From the IMG/VR virus record IMGVR_UViG_3300028399_000015, positions 1 through 40,623 of that record: DNA of 40,623 nt, one strand, 5' to 3'. Positions within the stretch are counted from its first letter, which is position 1, and each line of letters begins with the position of its first letter. The position numbers and the translations under genes are program-made. Origin of the DNA: a virus. The notes under the pieces are model-generated. The model saw only the letters and a program-made list of their open reading frames with translations, had not been told where the DNA came from and made no database searches. Below, one piece after another: positions 27,219-39,787 of this stretch.

Positions 27219-27719
27219 ATGGAAGAAGAACCTCTGCCGAAGCCAACTATCGACTGGAAACCTCCAGAGATACAGGCCCGTTTCACTCTCTCAGAAACCG
27301 CCCAGGCGCCCAAGCGTATGTCCTCAGGCGCGGCGGCGTGGGATCTTTTCGCTGACGCCCCCGAGCCGCCCCTGGGCTCTTGGATCTGCGCCCAAGGGAA
27401 AATCACCACCATTTCCACTGGGGTGCGCTTGGAGCTGCCCAAGGACACCTTCGCCCTGATCCTCCCCCGCAGCGGCCTCGCCGCCAAGCGCGGTTTCACC
27501 ATCGTGAATGCCCCAGGGCTTATTGACAGCGACTACCGTGGGGAGCTGAAAGTCATCGCCACCCTCCTGGGACCGGTGAATGCGTATTGGGAGGTGGCCC
27601 CAGGCACGCGCATTGCGCAGCTTCTCATCCTTCCGCAGGAGCGCATTTCACTCCTACGGGCGCAAGAGCTCACCCCCACCGCCAGGGGTGAAAAGGGCCT
27701 GGGCTCCACCGGGGAATAA
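27219..27719 (+). CDS. dut: dUTPase
   Basis: A 166-residue trimeric-type dUTP diphosphatase with all five motifs: SSGAAAWDLFAD (I), PRSGLA (II), NAPGLIDSDYRGEL (III, with the catalytic Asp and the uracil-pocket Tyr), GTRIAQLLI (IV) and RGEKGLGSTG (V). It hydrolyses dUTP to dUMP and pyrophosphate, which lowers uracil incorporation. The start is ATG 27219 with AGGAG upstream; the open frame to 27096 crosses the terminator and is rejected. The phage also carries a UDG domain on its polymerase, so uracil exclusion looks deliberate. Confidence 0.93.
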   Translation: MEEEPLPKPTIDWKPPEIQARFTLSETAQAPKRMSSGAAAWDLFADAPEPPLGSWICAQGKITTISTGVRLELPKDTFALILPRSGLAAKRGFTIVNAPGLIDSDYRGELKVIATLLGPVNAYWEVAPGTRIAQLLILPQERISLLRAQELTPTARGEKGLGSTGE

Positions 27720-27738
27720 CACTGCCAAAGGAACAGCT

Positions 27739-29028
27739 ATGGAAACAATAAAACTCTCTGATATAATCATCAAAAACCGCCAGCGCCGGCACTTCGACGA
27801 AGCCGAACTGCAGAAGCTAAGTGAAAGCATCCGCACCAAGGGCCTCCTTCACCCCCCGGTGCTGCAAAATGACGGCAGGACACTCGTAGCCGGCGAGCGC
27901 CGCCTCCGCGCAATCAAGCTCCTCTATGACCTAGACATTCCCATCAAGTGCCACGGTCGCGAAGTCCCCCTCGGGGAGGTCCCCTTTACCCGCATTGGGG
28001 AGCTCTCGCAGGACGATCTCATGGAAGCCGAGCTAGAGGAAAATGTCCTGCGGCAGGATCTCACCTGGCACGAGCACGCCCAGGCAGTGAAGGCCCTCCA
28101 TGAGCTGCGCTCTCGCCAAGATCCCCAACACACCGTAACTGCAACGGCCAGCGAAATCCTTGGCCGCCGTGCGCAGGGAGCCCAAGTGCATAATACCACT
28201 AAGGAAATCCTGGTGGCGGAGCACTTAGACGACCCAGAGATTGCCACTGCTCCCTCTCTCCAAGAGGCCTACCGCCGCCTCCGACGCAAGGTGGAAGAGA
28301 CCCACAAGGCCCAACTTGCGGAGCAGTTTAGCCAGGAGAAAGTTCCCCATCAAATCTTCCTAGGGAAGTTCCAGGATAACCTCCCCGCCCCTGGGACCAT
28401 TGATGTAATCCTCACAGACCCTCCCTACGGTATCAACGCTGACGACTTCGGCGGCATGAACCCTGCAGGCCACGGCTATGAGGATTCGCCTGAGTATTTC
28501 CGGGAAGTCATCACCCAGTTCGCAGAAGCCTCCGCCCTCGTAGCCAAGCCCGCCGCACACCTCTATTGCTTCTGCGACTTCTCCCGGTTCCCCTACCTAA
28601 GCGAGCTCTTCACTTCCCACGGCTGGACCCCGTGGAAGCTCCCGCTCATCTGGGCCAAGAATCCCAACTTCGGCCCGGTGCCCCTTCCCGACCATTCCCC
28701 CAGACGCACCTATGAGTGTATCCTCTACGCTTGGCGGGGGGACAAGCCCCTCCTCGCAATCCACCCAGATGTAATCTCCCTCTCCCAAAGCTCCCGCCCA
28801 CGCTTTGCCGCTGAGAAGCCCCCAGAGCTTTACCTAAACCTCCTGCGAAGGAGCGCCCGCCCGGGAGATTCCCTCTGGGACCCCTTCGCAGGCTCCGGCC
28901 CCATCATCCCCGCAGCAAATACCCTTGGCGCAACAGCCTGGGCCTCCGAGCTTCTCGAAGAGAAGCACCGTTACATCCTCACACGATTGGAAGAGAAGGT
29001 GGGGGATGAGCTGGAGGAATTGTTTTAG
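27739..29028 (+). CDS. ParB-like domain fused to DNA methyltransferase
   Basis: A 429-residue protein from ATG 27739. Residues ~1-130 are a ParB/Sulfiredoxin-type N-domain: SIRTKGLLHPPVL, AGERRLRAIKLL and ENVLRQDLTWHEHAQAVKAL. A helical linker follows. The methyltransferase part has TDPPYGIN (DPPY at 227-230, motif IV) and a C-terminal LWDPFAGSGPI (motif I, SAM-binding), so motif IV precedes motif I, as in beta-class N6-adenine or N4-cytosine enzymes. It would modify phage DNA to escape restriction or mark it for other purposes. The target sequence cannot be read. Confidence 0.85.
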   Translation: METIKLSDIIIKNRQRRHFDEAELQKLSESIRTKGLLHPPVLQNDGRTLVAGERRLRAIKLLYDLDIPIKCHGREVPLGEVPFTRIGELSQDDLMEAELEENVLRQDLTWHEHAQAVKALHELRSRQDPQHTVTATASEILGRRAQGAQVHNTTKEILVAEHLDDPEIATAPSLQEAYRRLRRKVEETHKAQLAEQFSQEKVPHQIFLGKFQDNLPAPGTIDVILTDPPYGINADDFGGMNPAGHGYEDSPEYFREVITQFAEASALVAKPAAHLYCFCDFSRFPYLSELFTSHGWTPWKLPLIWAKNPNFGPVPLPDHSPRRTYECILYAWRGDKPLLAIHPDVISLSQSSRPRFAAEKPPELYLNLLRRSARPGDSLWDPFAGSGPIIPAANTLGATAWASELLEEKHRYILTRLEEKVGDELEELF

Positions 29029-29107
29029 GGGGCGGATTTTGGGCCGTTTGGTTTGGTGCCGTTTGGGGGCCGGGAAAACGCCAATAAAATCAATAGGTTA
29101 AGGGCCC

Positions 29108-29136
29108 TTGTAATAGCATGTAATCCGTGTTACAAT
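29108..29136 (+). promoter_or_regulatory. Early promoter before the polymerase cluster
   Basis: TTGTAA (29108-29113), a 17-base spacer and TACAAT (29131-29136). It lies inside a 206-base gene-free stretch (29029-29234). Perfect inverted arms TGTAATAGC (29109-29117) and GCTATTACA (29156-29164) flank the -10 box and the start, so this promoter is probably regulated. The region also has two direct GCCGTTTGG copies near 29043 and 29059 and a single left half-site GGGCGGATT at about 29033. A leader of about 90 bases follows. Confidence 0.6.
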
Positions 29137-29234
29137 GTATTATATGCCGTTATACGCTATTACACAGCACCCACGGGGGCCATCCCCCACCGGCATAGCA
29201 TATAAACCCGCATAACCAATCGGAGGCCTAAGCC

Positions 29235-29423
29235 ATGCCAAAATGCCCTCACTGCCACAAGGAAATCCTGCCACAGCAGGAGCGCGCTTGCGTGTGCCCT
29301 CAGTGCTTTGAGGAGTTCATGCCCAAGCGCGCGAACCAAAAGTTTTGCTCTCCGGAGTGCAGGACTGCGTTTCACAACAATAAACTGATGGAGAAATACT
29401 ATGAGGCAAAGCAAGAGCAGTAA
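29235..29423 (+). CDS. Small zinc-finger protein
   Basis: A 62-residue protein with CPHC, CVCPQC and FCSPECR. This is the zinc-ribbon plus FCS-type finger pattern of small nucleic-acid-binding proteins. The last 23 bases overlap the start of the polymerase gene, suggesting coupled translation. It may assist the polymerase, which is inference. Confidence 0.6.
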   Translation: MPKCPHCHKEILPQQERACVCPQCFEEFMPKRANQKFCSPECRTAFHNNKLMEKYYEAKQEQ

Positions 29424-31071
29424 CCCCCTCCCCACCCAATCCCCGCCCGACGGCCCCCGCGATGCCCCCATCCTCATCGTGGGCGAGGCCTTCGGCGCGG
29501 ACGAAGCCCTCCGCGGCAAGCCCTTCGTCGGCCCCGCGGGGCGCGAGTTAACCCGAATGCTCCACGATGCAGGCATCGCCCGCACGGACTGCCTCATCAC
29601 CAACTTGGTAAATGCCCGTCCCCCAGCGAACAACATCCGCATTTGGTTTGAGAAGTGGACCAAAGCCGAGCGGATTCCCGGCCCCATTGTCCAAGAGGGC
29701 CTTAGGCGCCTGCATGCGCTTATCCAGGAAGTAAAACCAAAGCTTATTATCGCCCTAGGCGAAACCGCCCTCTGGGCCCTCTCCGGCAGGACCGGCATCA
29801 TGGACTGGCGCGGGAGCCAGCTTTGGTACAAGGACTCCCAGGGCAACCCCATTGCCAAGCTCGTCCCCACCGTCCACCCTGCCGCGGTGCTCCGGCAGTG
29901 GTCCTGGCGCTTCCTCGCGGTCCATGATCTCAAGCGCGCACGTGCGTGGGCCTTCGAGGGCGCGCACCAGGAGAGGGAGTATCGCTTTCATATCCGCCCC
30001 ATATTCGAGGACGCCGTAGCGCTGCTATCCGAGCAGCTCCAGCGCGCAGACCGCGGCCCCATCCGCCTGTCCTTCGACGTGGAAACCCGCGCCAAGGATT
30101 TACAAATCACCTGCTTCGGCATTGGCATCAGCGCGCACGAAGCATTCTGCATCCCTATCACTTCAGTCCAGGACCCCGAGGGCTATTGGACCCAGCACCA
30201 GGAGGCCGAGCTAATCTGGCTCCTCACCCGCCTCTTCAGACATCCAAACATCCGCTGGGTTCTGCAAAACGCAGCCTACGATTTCCAGTGGACCGCACGC
30301 CTCTGGGGCACCATTCCGCGCAATCTCCACATGGACACCATGCTGGCCCATCATGTTGCCTGGAGCGGCTTACCAAAGTCCCTCGATTTCCTCTCCTCCC
30401 TCTACTGCGACTACCATTGCTTCTGGAAGCACGAGGGTGCGGACTTCCACAAATCCCTCAAGACCCCTTCGGATGAAGATACCTATTGGCGCTATAACTG
30501 CAAAGACTGCTGTACCACCTGGGAAGTTTCAGAGGTCCTGGAGCAGCTCATAGAGAAGGAGGGGCTCCAGCCCGCATTCCGGTTCCAGCATGAGCAATTC
30601 TGGCCGGTTCTCCGGATGATGCTCAGGGGCGTCCGCATTGATACCGCCTTGAAAGACTCCCTCCGTCTGGACCTCATGCACGCTATGGTCGAGCGGGAGC
30701 AGTGGATGCAGGACACCTTGGGCCAAGTCCTCAATCCCCGCTCACCTAAGCAAATGCAAAAGTTCTTCTACAAAGACCTTGGCCTACCCGTGCAGTACAA
30801 CCGCAAAAGTGGCCGGCCCACCTGCGACGCTAAGGCCCTTGCGAAGCTCGCGAAGCGGGAAATCCTCATCCGCCCGGTGGTGGAAGTAATCGAGCAATAC
30901 CGCTCCCTGGGTGTCTTCCTCTCCACCTTCATCAATGCGCGCCTGGACCATGACAAGCGAATGCGCTGCTCCTACAACATCGCGGGCACGGAGACCTTCC
31001 GCTACAGCTCCTCATCCGACGCCTTTGGCTACGGTACAAACTTGCAGAATCTGCCGAAAGGAGACGACTGA
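29401..31071 (+). CDS. UDG fused to family A DNA polymerase, N-terminal fragment
   Basis: A 556-residue protein. Residues ~22-190 are a uracil-DNA glycosylase of the family 4/5 type: VGEAFGADEALRGKPFVGPA and LVPTVHPAAVLRQ. Residues ~220-385 are the 3'-5' exonuclease: FDVET (Asp226, Glu228), LQNAAYDFQWT (Asp294), MDTMLAHH (Asp312) and YNCKDC (Tyr365, Asp369). Residues ~395-556 are the start of the polymerase domain and end in GTNLQNLPKGDD, just before where motif A should follow. The polymerase active site itself is in the next-but-one gene. The protein would excise uracil and proofread. Confidence 0.9.
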   Translation: MRQSKSSNPLPTQSPPDGPRDAPILIVGEAFGADEALRGKPFVGPAGRELTRMLHDAGIARTDCLITNLVNARPPANNIRIWFEKWTKAERIPGPIVQEGLRRLHALIQEVKPKLIIALGETALWALSGRTGIMDWRGSQLWYKDSQGNPIAKLVPTVHPAAVLRQWSWRFLAVHDLKRARAWAFEGAHQEREYRFHIRPIFEDAVALLSEQLQRADRGPIRLSFDVETRAKDLQITCFGIGISAHEAFCIPITSVQDPEGYWTQHQEAELIWLLTRLFRHPNIRWVLQNAAYDFQWTARLWGTIPRNLHMDTMLAHHVAWSGLPKSLDFLSSLYCDYHCFWKHEGADFHKSLKTPSDEDTYWRYNCKDCCTTWEVSEVLEQLIEKEGLQPAFRFQHEQFWPVLRMMLRGVRIDTALKDSLRLDLMHAMVEREQWMQDTLGQVLNPRSPKQMQKFFYKDLGLPVQYNRKSGRPTCDAKALAKLAKREILIRPVVEVIEQYRSLGVFLSTFINARLDHDKRMRCSYNIAGTETFRYSSSSDAFGYGTNLQNLPKGDD

Positions 31072-31072
31072 C

Positions 31073-31282
31073 ATGCAACTAGAAGAAAACTTTCCAGCAA
31101 TCGCAAGGGTGTGGAAACAGCTTGGACTTTCAGCCGGCACGCCTCTCTACGACGGCATCATTCGCGTGGCCAATTATACAGGCTACCCCATACCCATTAA
31201 GCGTACAGATTTAGTCGAACCCTCAATGACACATTTAGAGTATTGGCTTAGAGAAAACTACAAAAACCACGGGGAGCCCTAA
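31073..31282 (+). CDS. Small gene inserted between the polymerase halves
   Basis: A 69-residue protein (ARVWKQLGLSAGTPLYDG; HLEYWLRENYKNHGEP) with no homing-endonuclease motif (no HNH, LAGLIDADG or GIY-YIG). It has an RBS (GGAG) overlapping the end of the first polymerase fragment. It is AT-richer than the polymerase around it, which points to insertion. It could be a decayed homing gene or a linker subunit of the split enzyme. Function is unknown. Confidence 0.65.
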   Translation: MQLEENFPAIARVWKQLGLSAGTPLYDGIIRVANYTGYPIPIKRTDLVEPSMTHLEYWLRENYKNHGEP

Positions 31283-31283
31283 A

Positions 31284-32930
31284 ATGCCCAACGACTTGAC
31301 CCTTCCTAACGTCCGCAAGATGTTCATCCCGGACCCAGGGATGATTATTGGCGACTTCGACCTCGCGCAGGCGGATGCCCAGGTGGTTGCTTGGGAAGCT
31401 AACGATGAAGAGCTAAAGGCAATCTTCCGTGACCCTTCGGCAGATCTCCACGCCGAAAACGCAAAGACTATCTTTGGCAAGCTTACTGACAAATATCGAA
31501 AGCTCGCAAAGGCAGGCGTCCACGCTACGAATTACGGCAGCGGTGCGCGTACGCTCGCGAGCGCCCTGGGCATCACCGTCCACGAGGCAGAGCGGTTCCA
31601 GCGGCGCTGGTTCGAAGCCCACCCTGGAATCAAAGAGTGGCACCAGCGCACGCTGCACTCCCTTCAGACCAAGCGCATGGTCACGAATGCCTTCGGCTTC
31701 AGGCGGTACTATTTCGACAGAATCGAGGGCCTACTCCCTGAGGCCCTAGCGTGGGTGCCCCAGTGCGTTCCACTCGACCATGAGGTTTTAACAAGAAACG
31801 GATGGAAACAAATCGCAGAAGTTCGCGTGCAGGAGCAAATTGCTATATGGCAGGAGGGGTTAATACGCTTCGAAACACCGCAAAGATGGAATGTGGGGGA
31901 GACAAAAGAGCTTGTGAAATTGCACGGATGTGACTACCTTTGCACACCAAACCACCGCGTTCCCTATTACAATGCAGGGCGTTCTTCTCTACAAGTTGCA
32001 ACTGCAAACAGTCTCCCCACAGGAGCCCGAGTTCCTCGCTGCGGATTATACGAAGGGGAAGTTGCAGTTCCCAAAGAATGGATAACCTATTTTGTCGCAT
32101 TTCAGGCAGATGGCCGCTATGACGCAACCCGAGACGCTATCCAGTTTGAGTTTTCCAAAGGGAGAAAAATCGCGCGACTGCAAGAGGCTTTGGACGAGCT
32201 TGATATTCCCTACACTAAGTCCTTAGTTCGCCGGGGAGCTACACTTTTTTACATCCCAAAGGGGAAGCATGGGTTTCCGAATGCTGCCTTTTATAAAGTA
32301 TTTGGAGATTGGCTCCTTGCATTGGACGGAGACAGTCTCGACGCATTCTTAGAGGAGCTTGAATTCTGGGATGGCTGGAGATCCCCACAAGGGGAATTAT
32401 GGTACTCTTCCAAAGTTAAACAAAACTGCGAGTGGGTAGCAACGATAGCCGCACTGCGGGGGAAAAGGGCACGCTGGCTTTCGACAGATAACAGAGGTAA
32501 AAACCCGGTTTATCGCCTAACAATCGCCCCGAATAAAGGCAAGCGCAGTGCCGTGACCGCAGAGCGGATTGCTGTGTCGGAACCGGTCGTTGTAGCCTGT
32601 CCTACAGTCAGCAGCGGGTTTTTCTTACTTCGATACAACGGAGAGATTAGCGTAACGGGAAACTCCACGGTCGCCCTCGTGATTGACAAGGGCCTAGTGA
32701 ACATCTATAAGAACCTGCCCAAAGTCGAGCCCCTCCTCCAAGTCCACGACTCGCTTGTACTCCAGTGGGAGAAGCGCTACCACCCACACATCTTGCGCGA
32801 AATCAAGCGCGAAATGGAAATCGTGGTGCCTTATGAAGATCCCCTGGTCATCCCCGTCGGCGCAGCTATCTCCGACCGCTCCTGGGGCGCAGTGCGGGAT
32901 GTGGACTGGGATGGGAACTTCGTGGAATGA
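31284..32930 (+). CDS. Family A DNA polymerase, C-terminal fragment with intein
   Basis: A 548-residue precursor. Residues 1-160 and 461-548 form the catalytic palm/fingers: LPNVRKMFIPDPG, motif A as GDFDLAQADAQVVAWE, motif B as KAGVHATNYGSGART, and motif C as LQVHDSLVLQW (VHD, the DNA-binding Asp). Residues 161-460 are an intein inserted after PEALAWVPQ. After splicing, the product is about 248 residues and must pair with the fragment at 29401-31071. An RBS (GGGGAG) precedes ATG 31284. The ancestral polymerase was clearly continuous: NLQNLPK to LPNVRKMF is a normal family A sequence apart from the insert. Confidence 0.92.
   Translation: MPNDLTLPNVRKMFIPDPGMIIGDFDLAQADAQVVAWEANDEELKAIFRDPSADLHAENAKTIFGKLTDKYRKLAKAGVHATNYGSGARTLASALGITVHEAERFQRRWFEAHPGIKEWHQRTLHSLQTKRMVTNAFGFRRYYFDRIEGLLPEALAWVPQCVPLDHEVLTRNGWKQIAEVRVQEQIAIWQEGLIRFETPQRWNVGETKELVKLHGCDYLCTPNHRVPYYNAGRSSLQVATANSLPTGARVPRCGLYEGEVAVPKEWITYFVAFQADGRYDATRDAIQFEFSKGRKIARLQEALDELDIPYTKSLVRRGATLFYIPKGKHGFPNAAFYKVFGDWLLALDGDSLDAFLEELEFWDGWRSPQGELWYSSKVKQNCEWVATIAALRGKRARWLSTDNRGKNPVYRLTIAPNKGKRSAVTAERIAVSEPVVVACPTVSSGFFLLRYNGEISVTGNSTVALVIDKGLVNIYKNLPKVEPLLQVHDSLVLQWEKRYHPHILREIKREMEIVVPYEDPLVIPVGAAISDRSWGAVRDVDWDGNFVE
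31764..32663 (+). other. Intein in the polymerase, with LAGLIDADG-like insert
   Basis: The 300-residue intein begins with CVPLDHEVLTRNGWKQIAEV (block A) and has TPNHRVPYY (block B). It ends with PTVSSGFFLLRYNG, then EISVTGN, followed by Ser. The penultimate residue is Gly, not the usual His; the C-terminal Asn and +1 Ser are intact. The middle has FVAFQADGRYDA and LEFWDGWRS at LAGLIDADG-like positions, with the acidic residue kept. Composition is AT-richer than the exteins. It probably splices and may once have been, or still be, mobile. Confidence 0.88.
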
Positions 32931-32933
32931 GTT

Positions 32934-32960
32934 GGGCGGATAATTGCCAATAACCCGCCC
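32934..32960. promoter_or_regulatory. 27-bp palindromic element, copy 5
   Basis: GGGCGGATAATT, three bases, AATAACCCGCCC: 10 of 12 arm positions pair. It begins three bases after the polymerase stop and lies 22 bases before the next start. No TTGACA lies at the usual distance, so it is an operator without a promoter or a leader hairpin. Confidence 0.65.
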
Positions 32961-32981
32961 CCAAAACAAAGGAGCTTACCA

Positions 32982-33326
32982 ATGCCATATATCTACCTAG
33001 CCTCTCCTTACACCCACCAGGACCCTGCGGTCCAGCGCCAACGCTACCACGACGTAACACTCGTTGTAGCCAAGCTCGTAGGATCCGGCTATATCGTCTA
33101 TTCCCCCATAGCGCACTTCCATCCCATTTCCGAGCTGCACTCCCTCCCGGGGGATTATACCTTCTGGAGCAAAATCAACACCGCGATGCTGCGCGGGGCC
33201 CAGGCCCTCCACGTCCTCATGCTCGACGGCTGGAAGCACTCCCGCGGAGTGAAGGAAGAGATCCAGCTCGCCACTCGCCTAGAACTCCCCATCCGCTATT
33301 ACACCCAGGAGGAAGTCCCGGCATGA
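32982..33326 (+). CDS. DUF1937/nucleoside deoxyribosyltransferase-like protein
   Basis: A 114-residue protein with the family pattern YIYLASPYTHQDPAVQRQRY, GYIVYSPIAHFHPISE, and LHVLMLDGWKHSRGV, then EEIQLATRLELPIRYY. This belongs to the Rossmann-like nucleoside 2-deoxyribosyltransferase-related group (DUF1937 or DUF4406). It may act in nucleotide salvage or base modification; the catalytic residues are not proven. It starts behind GGAG, just after the operator-like element. Confidence 0.8.
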   Translation: MPYIYLASPYTHQDPAVQRQRYHDVTLVVAKLVGSGYIVYSPIAHFHPISELHSLPGDYTFWSKINTAMLRGAQALHVLMLDGWKHSRGVKEEIQLATRLELPIRYYTQEEVPA

Positions 33327-34546
33327 AGAGGCGGTTGGAGAACTGGCTCGCCACCTACATGGAATACACCCGGGCCAGCGAAGCCCCGGACAAGTTCCAC
33401 TTCTGGACCGGGATCTCCGTGGTAGCTGGCGCACTGCGCCGGAAGGTCTGGCTCGACATGGGCCACTTCCAGTGGACCCCTAATTTCTACATCGTCTTCG
33501 TCGCACCCCCTGGCATCGTCTCCAAGACCACCACTGCCAACATCGGCATGAACCTCCTCCGCGAGATCCCCGAAGTCGCCTTCGGCCCGGAGAGTGTGAC
33601 CTGGCAAAGCCTCGTGAACTCCCTGGCCAACAGCACCCAGACCTTCCCCTACCGCGACATGCTCTGGCCCATGTCCCCCATTACCATCGTCTCAGGGGAG
33701 TTCGGCACCTTCCTCGATCCCAGCGACAGGGAAATGGTAGACATCCTCGTATCCCTCTGGGACGGCCAGATCGGCACCTTCCACAAAGCCACCAAGACCC
33801 AGGGCAACGATGCTATTGAGAATCCCTGGATTAACATCCTCGCTTGCACCACCCCCGCTTGGATCGCGGGTAACTTCCCCGACTACCTAATCGGCGGCGG
33901 CTTCACCTCCCGCACCATCTTCGTCTACGCCGAACAAAAGCGCCAATACGTCGCCTACCCTGGCCTGCACATGGACCCGGAGGATGCCCAGCGCAAGGAG
34001 GATCTAATCCATGATCTGGAAATCATCGCCAGCGACCTCATCGGCGAGTATTCCCTTGCGCCCGACGCGCGCGCCTGGGGCGAGGAGTGGTATGAGAAGC
34101 TCTACACCGACCGCCCCTTGCACCTCGACAACGACCGCTTCGCCGGCTACCTCGCGCGGAAGCAGACCCACCTGCACAAGCTCGCCCTGGTCCTCACTGC
34201 GATGCAGTCTGATGAGCCAGTCATTACCAAGGCAGTCCTGCAGCACGCGGATGCTGTTCTCAAGGGCGTGGAGGCAGACATGCCCTTGGTCTTTGCCCAG
34301 ATCGGCCGAAATCCCCTCTCTATGGTAATGGATGAAATGGCCGCTTTCATCGACAGCATTGGGATTATCTCCTCCGAGCTGCTCTACCGGAAGTTCTATA
34401 CTCGCCTGGGCGCTCGCGATTACACCGAGGCCATTGAAGGGCTCATCCGCATGGGCCGGATAAAGCAAATCTCCCGCCCCACTGGAATCGAATACGCTTC
34501 CGCCGCCCAGCTCAAGAAAGCCCAGGAGCCCTCCGATGCCAGCTAA
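33323..34546 (+). CDS. Replicative helicase-like ATPase (DUF3987-type)
   Basis: A 407-residue protein. After FHFWTGISVVAGALRRKVWL comes an atypical Walker A, VAPPGIVSKTTTANIG (about 61-76), then TIVSGEFGTFLDPSD as a Walker B/sensor-like segment, and a helical C-terminus that ends in a winged-helix-like region. This arrangement fits phage DUF3987-type primase-helicase proteins, which act at replication forks. No primase motif is seen. It starts in an ATGA overlap with the preceding gene and belongs to the polymerase cluster. Confidence 0.65.
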   Translation: MKRRLENWLATYMEYTRASEAPDKFHFWTGISVVAGALRRKVWLDMGHFQWTPNFYIVFVAPPGIVSKTTTANIGMNLLREIPEVAFGPESVTWQSLVNSLANSTQTFPYRDMLWPMSPITIVSGEFGTFLDPSDREMVDILVSLWDGQIGTFHKATKTQGNDAIENPWINILACTTPAWIAGNFPDYLIGGGFTSRTIFVYAEQKRQYVAYPGLHMDPEDAQRKEDLIHDLEIIASDLIGEYSLAPDARAWGEEWYEKLYTDRPLHLDNDRFAGYLARKQTHLHKLALVLTAMQSDEPVITKAVLQHADAVLKGVEADMPLVFAQIGRNPLSMVMDEMAAFIDSIGIISSELLYRKFYTRLGARDYTEAIEGLIRMGRIKQISRPTGIEYASAAQLKKAQEPSDAS

Positions 34547-34772
34547 ACCCCGCCGCTCCCTGATGCGGATGCTCTGCTTAGCCGAGGGCGCTTGCTGTCC
34601 CTACGCCTACCTCATCGCCACGGGGGACTTGTCCTCCAAGCAAATAGCGGACCGCCTAGGGGTTGCGCCCAGGACAGTCCGCTATTGGAGAGAGCAGGTG
34701 CGGAAGGGGCGATGCACCTGCGAGGGAAATGGCAAGTGCTACCTTGGAAACGCTGGAGCAAAGTCCTCTTGA
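34536..34772 (+). CDS. Helix-turn-helix protein
   Basis: A 78-residue protein with a clear HTH: DLSSKQIADRLGVAPRTVRY followed by WREQVRKG. Four Cys (CLAEGACC and CTCEGNGKC) may bind metal. It starts at ATG 34536 with GGAG upstream, overlapping the helicase-like gene. Its last 34 bases lie over the end of the opposing late gene. It is the last early gene, so it may be the regulator of early or late transcription and a candidate ligand of the 27-bp operator, which is inference. Confidence 0.65.
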   Translation: MPAKPRRSLMRMLCLAEGACCPYAYLIATGDLSSKQIADRLGVAPRTVRYWREQVRKGRCTCEGNGKCYLGNAGAKSS

Positions 34773-37700
34773 ATTGCCCGTTCCCTGGGCGCGCGCACGC
34801 CGTAGTTTTCCTCCAGTGCCCGCTGGCGCAGCCGCCCGCGGAGGGCCTGGCGGATCGCACTGCCACTGATCCTCATGGGCCAGTAGGGCACGTAGTCATT
34901 GAACCTCCGAATGTCCTCCATCGCTGCCTCCCGGCCCTTGGTATCCCCACTTCGCACTGCCTCTGCCAGCCGCCATAGCTTCGCCCGCCGCAGGCTTTCG
35001 TAATACTGCACAGCCTCTTGGGTGGTGTAAAACTCTTCCTTCGCCCGCGTTTCCGCAGTGGCAGTAAAGCCCATTCCCTGCAGCACCGTGCGGATGATCG
35101 CCTCCGGCTTCCGCATGTCATACTCCACCAGCACCGCGCCATCTGGCAGGGTAATCCCCCCTTCCTCTGCTATCTTTACTGACTTAGCTATATTCCTCCC
35201 AAAGGCGGGCAGTGCCGAGCCCCACCGCCGAAGCAGGTCCGGGTCATCCGAGGCGGCGGCTTGTACGAGCCCCAGCGGTATCGTCCACACAGCGCCGGAG
35301 GTCTGCTCTGCCGCCGCGAATAGACGGGAGTCAAAGTCCCCTGTGCGCCCAAAGAGGGGCTCCACGAAGGGAATAACTCGGCCGAGGGACAGCGACCCGC
35401 TCAGATCCACCCCCATCACATCCCGCGAAACTCCGTGCATTACCAGATCTGGGTTCAGCCCCAGCTCCGCAATAAGCTTCCGTAGCTCCACTCGCAGGTT
35501 GAAATAGGGATCTCCCCGCCCCAGCCACTTCTTCCCCTTCCGTATGACAAAATCAATCAGATCCATCAGATCCTCTGCAAAGGGCAAACCAGACAGCCCA
35601 CCCACAAAGAGCCAGAGCAGCCACATCCGCGCGGCGCTCTTATCGTGCGTCATCTGGAAGATGGTCTTCTGCATGTACATCCAGAACACAAATATCGTAC
35701 TGGTCCTCCCCCGCATAAACCTGGGGCGATCCCAGTAGGCATACTCATACTGTGTATCCGCTACCGCCTCATACGCCTTCCTCACCGCCTTCGCCTGCGG
35801 CAGCCCCCGCTTCCGCGCCAGGTTATACGCAGCCAGCGCCACCAGCCGCCGGTTGAGCTTCTCCACCGTCTGGAACATCCACGCGGCTTTCCCCGCCAGA
35901 TCCCGCACGAACATCTGGCCCTTCCGATCTGAAACCATCAGGGTACTCAAGCTCGTACCTTCCCCAATGGCCGCCACCTCTGTCGCCATACTCTCATCAA
36001 TGATCCCCAGCCGCTTTAGCTCCTCCAGCATCGCCCGTTCACCCTCGGAGAGCTTGTGCGGAGAGCGAATCGTATACCAAACCCGCCCAGCTTGCCGCGC
36101 CAACTCCGCCACCGCCGCTGGCTCTCCATACCGCGCAGAGAGATACGGCAAGGCCACCATTGGCACTTGCGTCGCATTCACCAAGGCACTCTTGGGAACC
36201 AGGCCAAGGTGGAAGATGAACGCAAACGCGCGCAGGGAGGCCCACTCGTTCCCTGGATTCATGATATACTCCAGGTGATTCTCCATAAACTCTGCCACCT
36301 GGTCCACCTTCCGCGAGTCCCCGCCGTACCAGTTTAGCTTCTTCCCATACTCCCGTACTTCCTTAATCGCATCCAGCATATCCGCCTTCCAGCGCAGGCG
36401 CGCCATGTGGCCGGAGAAGCTCTGGAAGTATTGCGCAAAGGCCCGCATAGCATCCTGGGACCACCCCGGAGTAACCTTCCGTTCCTTCAGCCGTTTCAAA
36501 AAGCTATTCGCCGGGGACATTTCCAGGCGGAGCAACTTCAGCTGCTCTCGCTGCTGCGGCGTTAGCTCCAGCGATTTCTCAAAGAACGCTAGAAGCTGCC
36601 CGGGCATTTGCACCAGCGGTTGCATCTCTTCCAAGAGATACCCCTTCGATGCGATGAAGCCCTCCCGCGCGTTCATTTCTTCGTGGAACTTTGCAGCTTC
36701 ACTCTCCTTCTCGAACATTCTGACTTCAGCAATATCCCCGACCTTAACTTGCTTCCCTGTCACCTCATCATAGTACGGCGCTAGGGCCTTCACCACCACA
36801 ATATGCTGCCCAAAGCGCGCAAGGGGGAAATAGTTCTTCTTCCTCAGCTCATTAATCTCCTGCCGCACCTTCGCCAGCTGCTGCTCCTGCACCACCGGGT
36901 CATCCTTGTACTCCCGCCGGACTTCCTCCATCCGCACAGATTCCATCATGTCCAGCGCATCCACGAACATCTGCTCCACCCGCATCGCGAGGGCTTGCTG
37001 CTCCTGGTCCAGGTTCCACAGCTTAACCAGCTCAAAGTATTCCACATCCTGCGGGTAGAAGCGCTTGCCCTCCCGTTCGGATAGAACCGTGAGATCCAAC
37101 AGAAACCGCCCCAGGACATCCGCCCGCTCCGTGCCCAACTTCACCCAATCCCGCAGCACTTCATCCGCCTCCGTGAGCCAGCGCATCTTATCCACCCACC
37201 ACTTGCGCTCTACCGTCTCTACATACTTCTGCAGGCCCTTCAAGTGGGGGTTGATTTTCGCAAGCTGCGTGATGGTATATCCATACTTGGCCACCCGGTG
37301 GAAATTCGTCAGCTCATCCCGAACCTTCTTGGGCATCCCCTCCGGCAGGTCTGGGGTGGTGTCATCTGTAGGATCCACATACTCATCCACCCCAATTTCC
37401 GTCAGCGTCTTCGCTATCTCCGTCGCCACCTTGCGGACCTGCTCATCCTCCGCCTCCAGCCCCTCTAGTACCATCCGGCGCTTCTTGATCTCCTCATGCA
37501 CCTGCAAGAGCTCTTCATTAAGCGCCATGAGCTTTGTGAAGTCCCTAAAATCATAGTCCTCTCGCTGGGGGATCGAAGTGTACATGCGCCTCCACTTCCT
37601 ATAAATGGCCTTGGAGAACTTATCCGCCTCCGGCTGCAGCGAGCCATCTGCCCGCACGGTTTCTGCAAAGCGGTTTGCCAGCCATTCTGCGAAGCTGGTG

Positions 37701-39787
37701 ATGTATCTCACATACGCTGGATCATGCTCCCGCAGTTCGTCCGGGGTCAAGTCCCCATACCGATGGTTTTTATAATTCTTAGCCAGCTCCGCCATAAACG
37801 TATCCGCACTCACTGCGGCCTCGGCCCGCTGTTTGCTCTGCAACCACAGCTTAACCAACCGCGTCTGGTCTTCCTTTGGCAGCTTCTGGAAGGTTTCAAT
37901 CAGCTCCGTATGCCCTAGCTCATGCACAGCCGCATCGAGGATGGAGCTTTCTACGCTCCCGGTAGTTTCTGCGTGTGTACCCAGGCGATCGGTGTTCAAA
38001 TACACAAAATCAAAGGGCCCCATCGTAAGGGCGAAACCCAGATTCGTAGGCGTATCCAGCACATGGTCGTATAGATAGCTGAAAGTAGGCGAACCCCGCA
38101 GGGCCCGTATGGTAGCACTATCAAACACGACCAGGGGCTTTTTCCTCCCCAACTTATCCATCAGGGCCTGAAGCTGCGGAACAATGCGCTGTTGCATCAA
38201 GCGCCCGGTGTCAATAATCCGCCGCAGCCTTTCCTCATGATAAGGAGATGCGGCGCCACTGCCTTCATTCTTCCTATAAACCTCTTCCAGCTCTGCCAGC
38301 GCATCCAGAACAACCACTCTCCCCTCTGGCAAATTAGCAAAGTCCACGACCTCTCCCGAAGTATCCCTGAAGCCCAGCTGCGTAAGCTCAGCCACCTGAC
38401 TCTCCGTCAGCCGCTCCACATAGCTCCCAGCTCTCTTTTCCGCCTCTTCAAACACGCTCTCCGGGATCTCATCCACCAGCCCGCTATCTACCTTCTCCCG
38501 CAGCGCGGATTGCTTCTTCTCCGTGGCCGCCTTGTACTCCTCCCAAAGCCCCAGGTCCTTCGCGAGCAGCTCGCGCAGCCTTTCCCTCTCCTTCCGCTGC
38601 ACATATCGCCGCAAAGGCGGCACTGCCCCCAGGGCCTTATCCCCCAGCGCATCCAACACCTCCTGGCTCTTCCGCGGTAGCTTCTTCGCCGCCTCCTGCA
38701 TTCGATACTGCGCCCGTCCCACCGAGCCCACAATCGGCGCGGCAAGCATTCCCTGGAACCCTCCCGCCAGAGTCCGTGCGACAATCTCCCGCGTGGTCAG
38801 GTTCGGATACAGCACCGCCTTGTCCAACAGCGCCTGCAGTAGCTCCGAAGAGCCCTCTTGGCCGAACTCAAGGAGGGTGTACCTGAACAGCGTCTTAACC
38901 GTATCAGAGCCGAGGTTCTTAATCAAATACCCCAACGGCAACAGCTCCGTCCCAGATTCAATGAGCCCCGTCATTTGCGAGAGCGGCTTCGCTACCTCCG
39001 GCTTCACTCCCTTGCTAAGCAGCGCTCCATACTCCTGCGCGGACGTCTGGGCATACATTTCCAGCAGCCCCACAGAGGGCCGCTTCGTAGCCACCGAAGC
39101 CATCACTGCGGGCAAGCTTTGCTGCACACTCACCGCGAAGTTAAACATCTTCTCCGCAATGGGATTCTCCGGCGCGAGCGCCTTAAGCTCCCCTTCCAAT
39201 TCCTTGAACTCCCGCAGAGCCTGCTGTGCCCGTGGCGTTTCCAGCATATCCCCCGCCGTTACCTCTTCCCCCACCGGCAGTGCGCCTTCTTCCCCCAGCT
39301 TCCTCTCCAGCACCCGCGCCATCGGAGGCATTTCATACGGCCGCGTCAGCCACTCCAGCTCCATCCCTTTCGCCACCTGCTGCGCGATCGTAGGGGTGGC
39401 CTTAGCCGCCTGCACGACCCCCTCCACACCCTGCTCTACCACATTCTCCTCTGGCGGGCTCATGGCCGAGCGCCCGAAAGCCCCGGCGTCCTTGAGCAGC
39501 CGCACCGCTCCGCTTGCCACCGCCGCAGCACCCTTCCCCAGTGCTTCCGGCGCCTTGTCCAAGGCATACGTCCCCAGCGCCACCCCACGCACGATGTTAT
39601 CCAGATACCAGGGCAGCTCAGTCCCATCATCTATCTCCTGAGGCTCTCGCTGGAATCCCTTCCCTGCAAATGGGTCTTGCGAAGGCGCCAGCTCCGCACC
39701 CTCGAATCCCTTACCCTCAAAGGGATCTTTCTTGCTCTCCTGCCCCTTCGCACCTGCGAACCCTACGCCAGCAAAAGGATCATTCAC
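34739..39787 (-). CDS. Giant internal virion (ejection) protein
   Basis: A 1682-residue protein, the longest in the window. The N-terminus has three DPFxGxGF repeats (DPFAGVGF, DPFEGKGF, DPFAGKGF) separated by ~20 residues. Helical segments follow. Residues 622-626 are HELGH, a zincin-type zinc protease motif preceded by DAAVH. The C-terminal half is helical with hydrophobic parts (FIFHLGLVPKSALVN; MWLLWLFVGGLSGLPFAEDL), as in large polyvalent or internal virion proteins ejected with the DNA. No lysozyme-like transglycosylase motif was recognised. It follows the gene at 39784 with a 4-base overlap and is probably the last gene of the late unit. Confidence 0.75.
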   Translation of the reverse strand: MNDPFAGVGFAGAKGQESKKDPFEGKGFEGAELAPSQDPFAGKGFQREPQEIDDGTELPWYLDNIVRGVALGTYALDKAPEALGKGAAAVASGAVRLLKDAGAFGRSAMSPPEENVVEQGVEGVVQAAKATPTIAQQVAKGMELEWLTRPYEMPPMARVLERKLGEEGALPVGEEVTAGDMLETPRAQQALREFKELEGELKALAPENPIAEKMFNFAVSVQQSLPAVMASVATKRPSVGLLEMYAQTSAQEYGALLSKGVKPEVAKPLSQMTGLIESGTELLPLGYLIKNLGSDTVKTLFRYTLLEFGQEGSSELLQALLDKAVLYPNLTTREIVARTLAGGFQGMLAAPIVGSVGRAQYRMQEAAKKLPRKSQEVLDALGDKALGAVPPLRRYVQRKERERLRELLAKDLGLWEEYKAATEKKQSALREKVDSGLVDEIPESVFEEAEKRAGSYVERLTESQVAELTQLGFRDTSGEVVDFANLPEGRVVVLDALAELEEVYRKNEGSGAASPYHEERLRRIIDTGRLMQQRIVPQLQALMDKLGRKKPLVVFDSATIRALRGSPTFSYLYDHVLDTPTNLGFALTMGPFDFVYLNTDRLGTHAETTGSVESSILDAAVHELGHTELIETFQKLPKEDQTRLVKLWLQSKQRAEAAVSADTFMAELAKNYKNHRYGDLTPDELREHDPAYVRYITSFAEWLANRFAETVRADGSLQPEADKFSKAIYRKWRRMYTSIPQREDYDFRDFTKLMALNEELLQVHEEIKKRRMVLEGLEAEDEQVRKVATEIAKTLTEIGVDEYVDPTDDTTPDLPEGMPKKVRDELTNFHRVAKYGYTITQLAKINPHLKGLQKYVETVERKWWVDKMRWLTEADEVLRDWVKLGTERADVLGRFLLDLTVLSEREGKRFYPQDVEYFELVKLWNLDQEQQALAMRVEQMFVDALDMMESVRMEEVRREYKDDPVVQEQQLAKVRQEINELRKKNYFPLARFGQHIVVVKALAPYYDEVTGKQVKVGDIAEVRMFEKESEAAKFHEEMNAREGFIASKGYLLEEMQPLVQMPGQLLAFFEKSLELTPQQREQLKLLRLEMSPANSFLKRLKERKVTPGWSQDAMRAFAQYFQSFSGHMARLRWKADMLDAIKEVREYGKKLNWYGGDSRKVDQVAEFMENHLEYIMNPGNEWASLRAFAFIFHLGLVPKSALVNATQVPMVALPYLSARYGEPAAVAELARQAGRVWYTIRSPHKLSEGERAMLEELKRLGIIDESMATEVAAIGEGTSLSTLMVSDRKGQMFVRDLAGKAAWMFQTVEKLNRRLVALAAYNLARKRGLPQAKAVRKAYEAVADTQYEYAYWDRPRFMRGRTSTIFVFWMYMQKTIFQMTHDKSAARMWLLWLFVGGLSGLPFAEDLMDLIDFVIRKGKKWLGRGDPYFNLRVELRKLIAELGLNPDLVMHGVSRDVMGVDLSGSLSLGRVIPFVEPLFGRTGDFDSRLFAAAEQTSGAVWTIPLGLVQAAASDDPDLLRRWGSALPAFGRNIAKSVKIAEEGGITLPDGAVLVEYDMRKPEAIIRTVLQGMGFTATAETRAKEEFYTTQEAVQYYESLRRAKLWRLAEAVRSGDTKGREAAMEDIRRFNDYVPYWPMRISGSAIRQALRGRLRQRALEENYGVRAPRERAIQEDFAPAFPR

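Follow-up and report, generated by a model that had tools for sequence, protein, structure and literature searches.

How does a phage come to carry its replication polymerase in two genes, and could the two products still form one enzyme? The question is raised by a family A DNA polymerase gene in the window, the term used here for the whole stretch of 40,623 bases that was analysed (IMG/VR virus record IMGVR_UViG_3300028399_000015, of metagenomic origin, with a tailed-phage gene set of major head protein, portal-like head-tail adaptor and terminase). Three consecutive plus-strand open reading frames (ORFs) at 29401-32930 encode the N-terminal part of the polymerase (N-half), a small protein, and the C-terminal part (C-half). 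We consider it very probable that the replication polymerase is a two-gene enzyme, whose halves would be separate translation products of one operon and associate non-covalently after removal of an intein. With clearly less confidence, we also favour the view that the loop ahead of motif A is a recurrent breakpoint, at which several independent breaks would have occurred by way of a coding sequence that doubles as a ribosome-binding site, and that the gap serves genes of unrelated kinds as a general landing site, where they become co-expressed with the polymerase. We infer the assembly of the halves, the enzymatic activity and the order of events from sequence. The features of the locus are:

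29401..31071, plus strand: N-half of the polymerase gene, 556 amino acids (aa), comprising uracil-DNA glycosylase (UDG) and 3'-5' exonuclease domains and the beginning of the family A polymerase domain
29443..29907, plus strand: uracil-DNA glycosylase domain (family 4-like), Pfam UDG; TIGR00758, 3.2e-26, under its curated cut-off
30025..30552, plus strand: 3'-5' exonuclease domain, Pfam PF01612
31057..31063, plus strand: ribosome-binding site AAAGGAG for the small gene, inside the N-half codons for Pro-Lys-Gly-Asp
31073..31282, plus strand: inserted small gene, 69 aa, ATG start, an ORF of its own
31271..31276, plus strand: ribosome-binding site GGGGAG for the C-half, inside the 3' end of the small gene
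31284..32930, plus strand: C-half of the polymerase gene, 548-aa precursor, 248 aa without the intein, with palm and fingers and motifs A, B and C
31764..32663, plus strand: intein, 300 aa, C-half residues 161-460, between Q and S of PQ/STVA

Position of the cut and integrity of the two halves

The N-half ends in ...NLQNLPKGDD, followed by a TGA stop, the N-terminus of the C-half is MPNDLTLPNVRKMF, and the interval of 212 nucleotides (nt) between the halves is nearly all occupied by the 69-codon ORF. In Pfam searches the N-half matched UDG (aa 15-169, 2.5e-25), DNA_pol_A_exo1 (aa 209-384, 7.8e-10) and DNA_pol_A (aa 423-553, 8.2e-13), and it also matched PHROG 17, DNA polymerase (9.3e-62); the C-half matched the remainder of DNA_pol_A (5.4e-29). 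This profile (PF00476) is recovered across both halves, up to position 133 in the N-half and from position 140 of 381 in the C-half. With the TIGR00593 PolA profile, the N-half match ends at 642 and the C-half match restarts at 651, so the cut lies in the segment that precedes motif A, with nothing conserved missing. Residues D226, E228, N290, D294, Y365 and D369 of the exonuclease domain are invariant among the aligned relatives, and in the intein-free C-half the motif A D26, motif B K76/Y84 and motif C D189 (equated by alignment with residues of Taq polymerase) are invariant in 15 aligned relatives. The alignment to Taq polymerase places the cut in the loop that follows NLQNIP, ahead of the strand leading to motif A. 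The two ORFs cover consecutive parts of the polymerase, and no conserved residue is lost at the cut. An earlier note on this DNA, made from the letters alone, had reported the three ORFs and held that the polymerase parts would be adjacent just before motif A, and the alignment with intact PolA proteins that it proposed bears this out. The note overlooked the intein in the C-half, which is therefore not all polymerase.

The AlphaFold model of an intact relative (L033; 54 sequences) has a mean predicted local distance difference test (pLDDT) score of 95, and a Foldseek search with it retrieved family A polymerases, including the Klenow and Bst fragments. The segment of L033 that matches the break (about residues 541-560) is modelled as coil with a pLDDT of 81-82, among the lowest in the model, which would fit a loop that is tolerant of interruption.

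The intein interrupts the invariant PQS of the polymerase and has the sequence CVPLDHEVLT...ISVTGN/S. It carries an N-terminal Cys (C1), TPNH in block B (TxxH), a C-terminal Asn before Ser (VTGN/S), and two LAGLIDADG-like endonuclease motifs (YFVAFQADGRY and ELEFWDGW). By tblastn, phage proteins that carry inteins match it at 28-30% identity (E to 2e-21), among them one annotated as intein-containing; it had no match among PDB sequences. The intein-free C-half (248 aa) aligns with relatives along its full length, and the C-half is predicted to splice. In-frame insertions of 756-915 nt, probably inteins, are found at other polymerase sites in L143, L157 and L161 (C-terminal part, profile position 82) and in L065 (N-terminal/exonuclease part, position 350).

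Split and intact relatives

Relatives, denoted here by L numbers, were gathered from phage records and by searches in which the C-half, the N-half or an alignment of either served as query; together these gave 142 distinct classifiable junctions. The polymerase is intact at 100 of these, where the linker separating the profile matches measures 0-144 nt, and split at 42, a ratio that is not a population frequency because the relatives were picked by similarity searches; by query, the split fraction was 24/64 among loci from the C-half alignment and 7/54 among those from the N-half alignment. All 42 cuts fall in one loop, between NLQN(I/L)PKG and LPN(I/V)RK, just before motif A, and the cultured isolate Vibrio phage vB_VspS_VS-ABTNL-3 is cut at exactly the same site. 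A continuous ORF in relatives, which the earlier note had counted as evidence against a split, does occur in the 100 intact loci; the split stands nonetheless, and the two forms coexist. The gaps in split junctions measure 2 to 1948 nt. In 14 cases the gap is shorter than 100 nt and holds no gene, with stop and start overlapping as ATGA in some of them. The genes found in the gaps are:

L002, L007: HNH_3 endonuclease
L014, L056: HNH-like gene, recognised by eye only
L083, L086: dUTPase
L030: ThyX
L174: ribonucleotide reductase
L024, L040: methyltransferase-like gene
L075 (4702-5238), L091 (5469-6008), L175 (5234-5752): free-standing Lon-type protease domain (Lon_C/ChlI-like), 173-180 aa, from one clade
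L134: RNase_T exonuclease
L014: helix-turn-helix protein
Window, L006, L008, L009, L063, L066 and others: small ORF without known function

The small gene, by which the earlier note took the polymerase to be split, is therefore not what defines the split, since the cut recurs at this site in relatives that have no insert or hold other genes. A pair with and without an insert is formed by the sister phages L054 and L056, which are 87-90% identical on either side of the junction. L054 has no insert, and its halves overlap in GAATGAGC, where stop and start share ATGA. In L056 a 146-aa gene lies precisely between stop and start; its ATG overlaps the N-half stop as in L054, and the C-half restarts at the end of the gene. 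Since insert-free L074 belongs to the same clade of the tree as L054, the gene probably entered a pre-existing break in L056. The ratio of nonsynonymous to synonymous substitution rates (dN/dS) between the sisters is ∼0.06 for the N-half and ∼0.075 for the C-half, which shows purifying selection on both.

These data bear on the possibility that a homing endonuclease gene invaded and split the polymerase gene and later decayed, with the 69-aa gene as its remnant or replacement, as in nrdA and gene 43 of T4-like phages. HNH_3 endonucleases do occupy the gaps of L002 and L007, and in L014 and L056 the C-terminal ARKSWE codons of the HNH-like genes provide the next ribosome-binding site. However, the inserts are mostly other than endonucleases, 14 splits have no insert, and the insert-free sister L054 together with L074 in the wider clade suggests that the split came first. 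The 69-aa protein had no match to any family, endonucleases included, in Pfam, PHROG or NCBIfam, so the profile search that the earlier note proposed returned nothing, and its remark that the insert carries no recognised homing motif holds. We regard this origin as unlikely.

The minimum number of changes between the intact and split states was 14 on a FastTree tree of 142 rows (9 with branches under 95 collapsed), while a quick IQ-TREE tree with 138 rows gave 12 and 8; the two trees were read at several support cut-offs, and shuffled labels needed at least 24. Some splits are nested inside intact clades (L064; the group of L107, L158, L014 and L123). Breaks of other kinds are also present among the relatives. 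In L034 (1837-4150) the UDG part is also a gene of its own, 654 nt before the exonuclease part, and the polymerase is spread over three genes. In the more distant relatives L019 (Caulobacter phage Kuura), L020 (ctLwi270) and L015 the break separates exonuclease from polymerase, has genes between the parts, and does not lie in the motif A loop. The close relatives L171-L175 come from metagenome-assembled genomes labelled Nitrososphaera, Planctomycetota, Nitrospinota, Dokdonella and Ignavibacteria, in contigs of ∼24-51 kb that are probably binned phage.

Translation signals and a proposed route to two genes

The last N-half codons, for PKG(D/E), have the form AA(A/G)GGNGA. For the Gly of PKG, 32/37 split genomes use GGA or GGG, compared with 40% of the other Gly codons in the same N-halves (P = 1.6e-8), whereas in intact genomes it ends in A or G in 30/57 cases against a background of 46% (P = 0.35); the difference between split and intact genomes has P = 0.0008, and all these P values are optimistic since the tests treat the genomes as independent although they are related. 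As judged from codon usage, the preference for GGA/GGG strengthens the ribosome-binding site for the next gene in split genomes. A start codon lies no more than 20 residues from the LPN motif in every one of the 42 split C-halves, 36 of which also have a Shine-Dalgarno-like site. The earlier note was correct that each half has its own start and that both downstream ORFs have a ribosome-binding site. With starts and ribosome-binding sites under selection in the relatives, the two halves are likely translated separately.

Joining of the halves during or after translation was considered in two forms. Several gap-free relatives rule out programmed frameshifting or readthrough as the general way to obtain a joined protein: in L022, L054, L065, L011, L082, L064 and L073 the reading frame of the C-half is closed at the N-half stop or no more than 4 nt from it, which leaves no frameshift that could fuse the halves there. 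Only in L038 are stop and start in one frame, and readthrough is possible there. A split intein at the break was rejected too, as the N-half ends in PKGDD and the C-half starts with MPNDLTLPN, with intein sequence at neither end.

In the route that we propose, the gene would have broken in the surface loop that connects the NLQN motif to motif A and whose length and sequence vary among intact relatives too. The conserved Pro-Lys-Gly-(Asp/Glu) codons read AAAGGNGA, near to a ribosome-binding site, and this resemblance would make breakage easy at the loop: a single stop or frameshift and a nearby start codon, often in an ATGA overlap, may suffice to give two translated cistrons. The N-half (UDG, proofreading exonuclease and the thumb-side part of the polymerase) and the C-half (palm, fingers and all catalytic motifs) would then be made separately, and the C-half would splice out its intein before the halves join non-covalently into one polymerase. 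After the split, the junction would be an ordinary gene boundary at which unrelated genes can settle, here the 69-aa gene.

Several observations weigh against this account. The penultimate residue of the intein is Gly, where His is usual, which makes its splicing uncertain. The relatives are mostly metagenomic contigs chosen by similarity to the window, so that 42/142 says little about how common the split is in nature. The count of independent breaks is uncertain, with weak support on deep branches, and parsimony cannot separate breakage from re-fusion at deep nodes. In addition, the N-terminus MVAKTI.LPN is common to the C-halves of separated clades (L006, L023, L081 and L134), which hints at common descent of some splits or at their exchange by recombination.

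A different outcome would follow if the interval were a self-splicing intron or a bypassed segment and a single polymerase were made after all. Phage family A polymerase genes are interrupted by introns near this position; an intron was raised for MEP401 (PMC10580990), and a 298-bp interval in Mic1 was called one (PMC7156551). However, no Rfam family of any kind matched within 29000-33400 of the window at E up to 5, and at gathering thresholds none matched the corresponding loci in seven relatives; no intron was found for the RNA splicing that the earlier note had named as a way of joining the halves. Moreover, a 69-codon ORF that has a ribosome-binding site of its own takes up almost all of the 212-nt interval, gaps of 2-67 nt in relatives are too small, and an intron would leave the codon bias at the ribosome-binding site unexplained, all of which makes this reading highly improbable. 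We are equally doubtful that the C-half and the whole polymerase are decaying while the phage relies on the host polymerase: the gene is broken and intein-bearing, but all exonuclease and polymerase catalytic residues are kept, both halves have a dN/dS far below 1 in split relatives, and starts and ribosome-binding sites are maintained. An assembly error or chimera, which might be suspected in a metagenomic record, is practically out of the question and is refuted for the class by the same cut in many independent contigs and in cultured VS-ABTNL-3, in line with the earlier note, which had called the two genes a stable arrangement (the cut recurs in 42 of the 142 junctions).

Comparison with known systems and the inserted gene

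Split phage polymerases as such are already known; new here are the recurrence at one loop, the varied cargo and the embedded ribosome-binding site. In the literature within reach of our search, a recurrent breakpoint with varied cargo at this loop was not described. The earlier note knew of no family A polymerase cut at this place; the exact point does differ from those in MEP401/402 and Mic1, but similar splits have been published (PMC10580990, PMC7156551). In the OM43 phages MEP401 and MEP402, the family A polymerase is split by a small ORF, and the authors suggested an intron (PMC10580990; OP830906). As in the window, PolA is in two ORFs around one small ORF without known function (77 aa), the cut is between NLQN and motif A, and the N-half comprises the exonuclease and the first part of the polymerase and the C-half the rest. 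Unlike in the window, the cut immediately precedes motif A (...FLSRYGE / MILNADAKALEW), further downstream by 25 alignment columns or about 20 residues, and these phages belong to the Zobellviridae, have no UDG domain, an unrelated small ORF and no intein. Vibrio phage vB_VspS_VS-ABTNL-3 (PVS_27/28/29; MF497422) is of the same UDG-exonuclease-polymerase lineage as the window and has the same cut (NLQNLPKGDG / MDCQLPNIKKLF), but its gap gene is an unrelated one of 184 aa, it has no intein, and the record annotates separate genes and leaves the split uncommented. In cyanophage Mic1, DNA polymerase gamma (ORF85/86) is another phage enzyme of family A that is divided between two ORFs near motif A; the cut is reported inside motif A, however, the 298-bp interval is described as an intron, and the enzyme is gamma-like (PMC7156551).

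Among T4-like phages, gp43A/43B of Aeromonas phages 25 and 44RR is a replicative polymerase in two genes, split by an endonuclease gene or intercistronic sequence; the halves of phage 25 co-purify and are active, and a split-first order was considered (PMC2988022). That system differs from the window in being family B, confined to one lineage and cut at another site, with a homing gene or untranslated sequence in the gap rather than varied metabolic genes. MIJ3 has a split PolB with an intein. The domain order UDG, exonuclease, family A polymerase is shared with gp205 of Pseudomonas phage PaBG, which is a single intact protein from a jumbo phage (PMC7412058). The split-intein 'fractured genes' (Dassa et al. 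2009, cited in PMC6892783) also have a gene in two with another gene between; they differ from the window, where no intein halves flank the break and the intein is whole and lies elsewhere in the C-half.

Intact, barely split and split with cargo, the relatives form a natural series of one enzyme, which opens the route from a single-chain to a two-chain polymerase to study and names a natural cut point in a family of polymerases in wide laboratory use. Genes besides homing endonucleases settle in polymerase gaps, and surveys that rely on full-length polymerases will miss or miscount such phages.

The 69-aa protein had no relatives in IMG/VR patterns, 50,697 phage records or any ORF of the fetched relative loci. 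Its AlphaFold model, made without an alignment, is weak (pLDDT 65), and a fold search with it gave matches at the level of noise only. The gene is most likely a passenger; less probably, its product may be a polymerase subunit or regulator. Elsewhere in the window, a ParB-like domain fused to a DNA methyltransferase is encoded upstream of the polymerase operon (27580-29028), and a 1682-aa protein is encoded on the minus strand at 34739-39787, the C-terminal part of which has matches in PHROG families made up of very large proteins, one of them annotated as DarB-like antirestriction.

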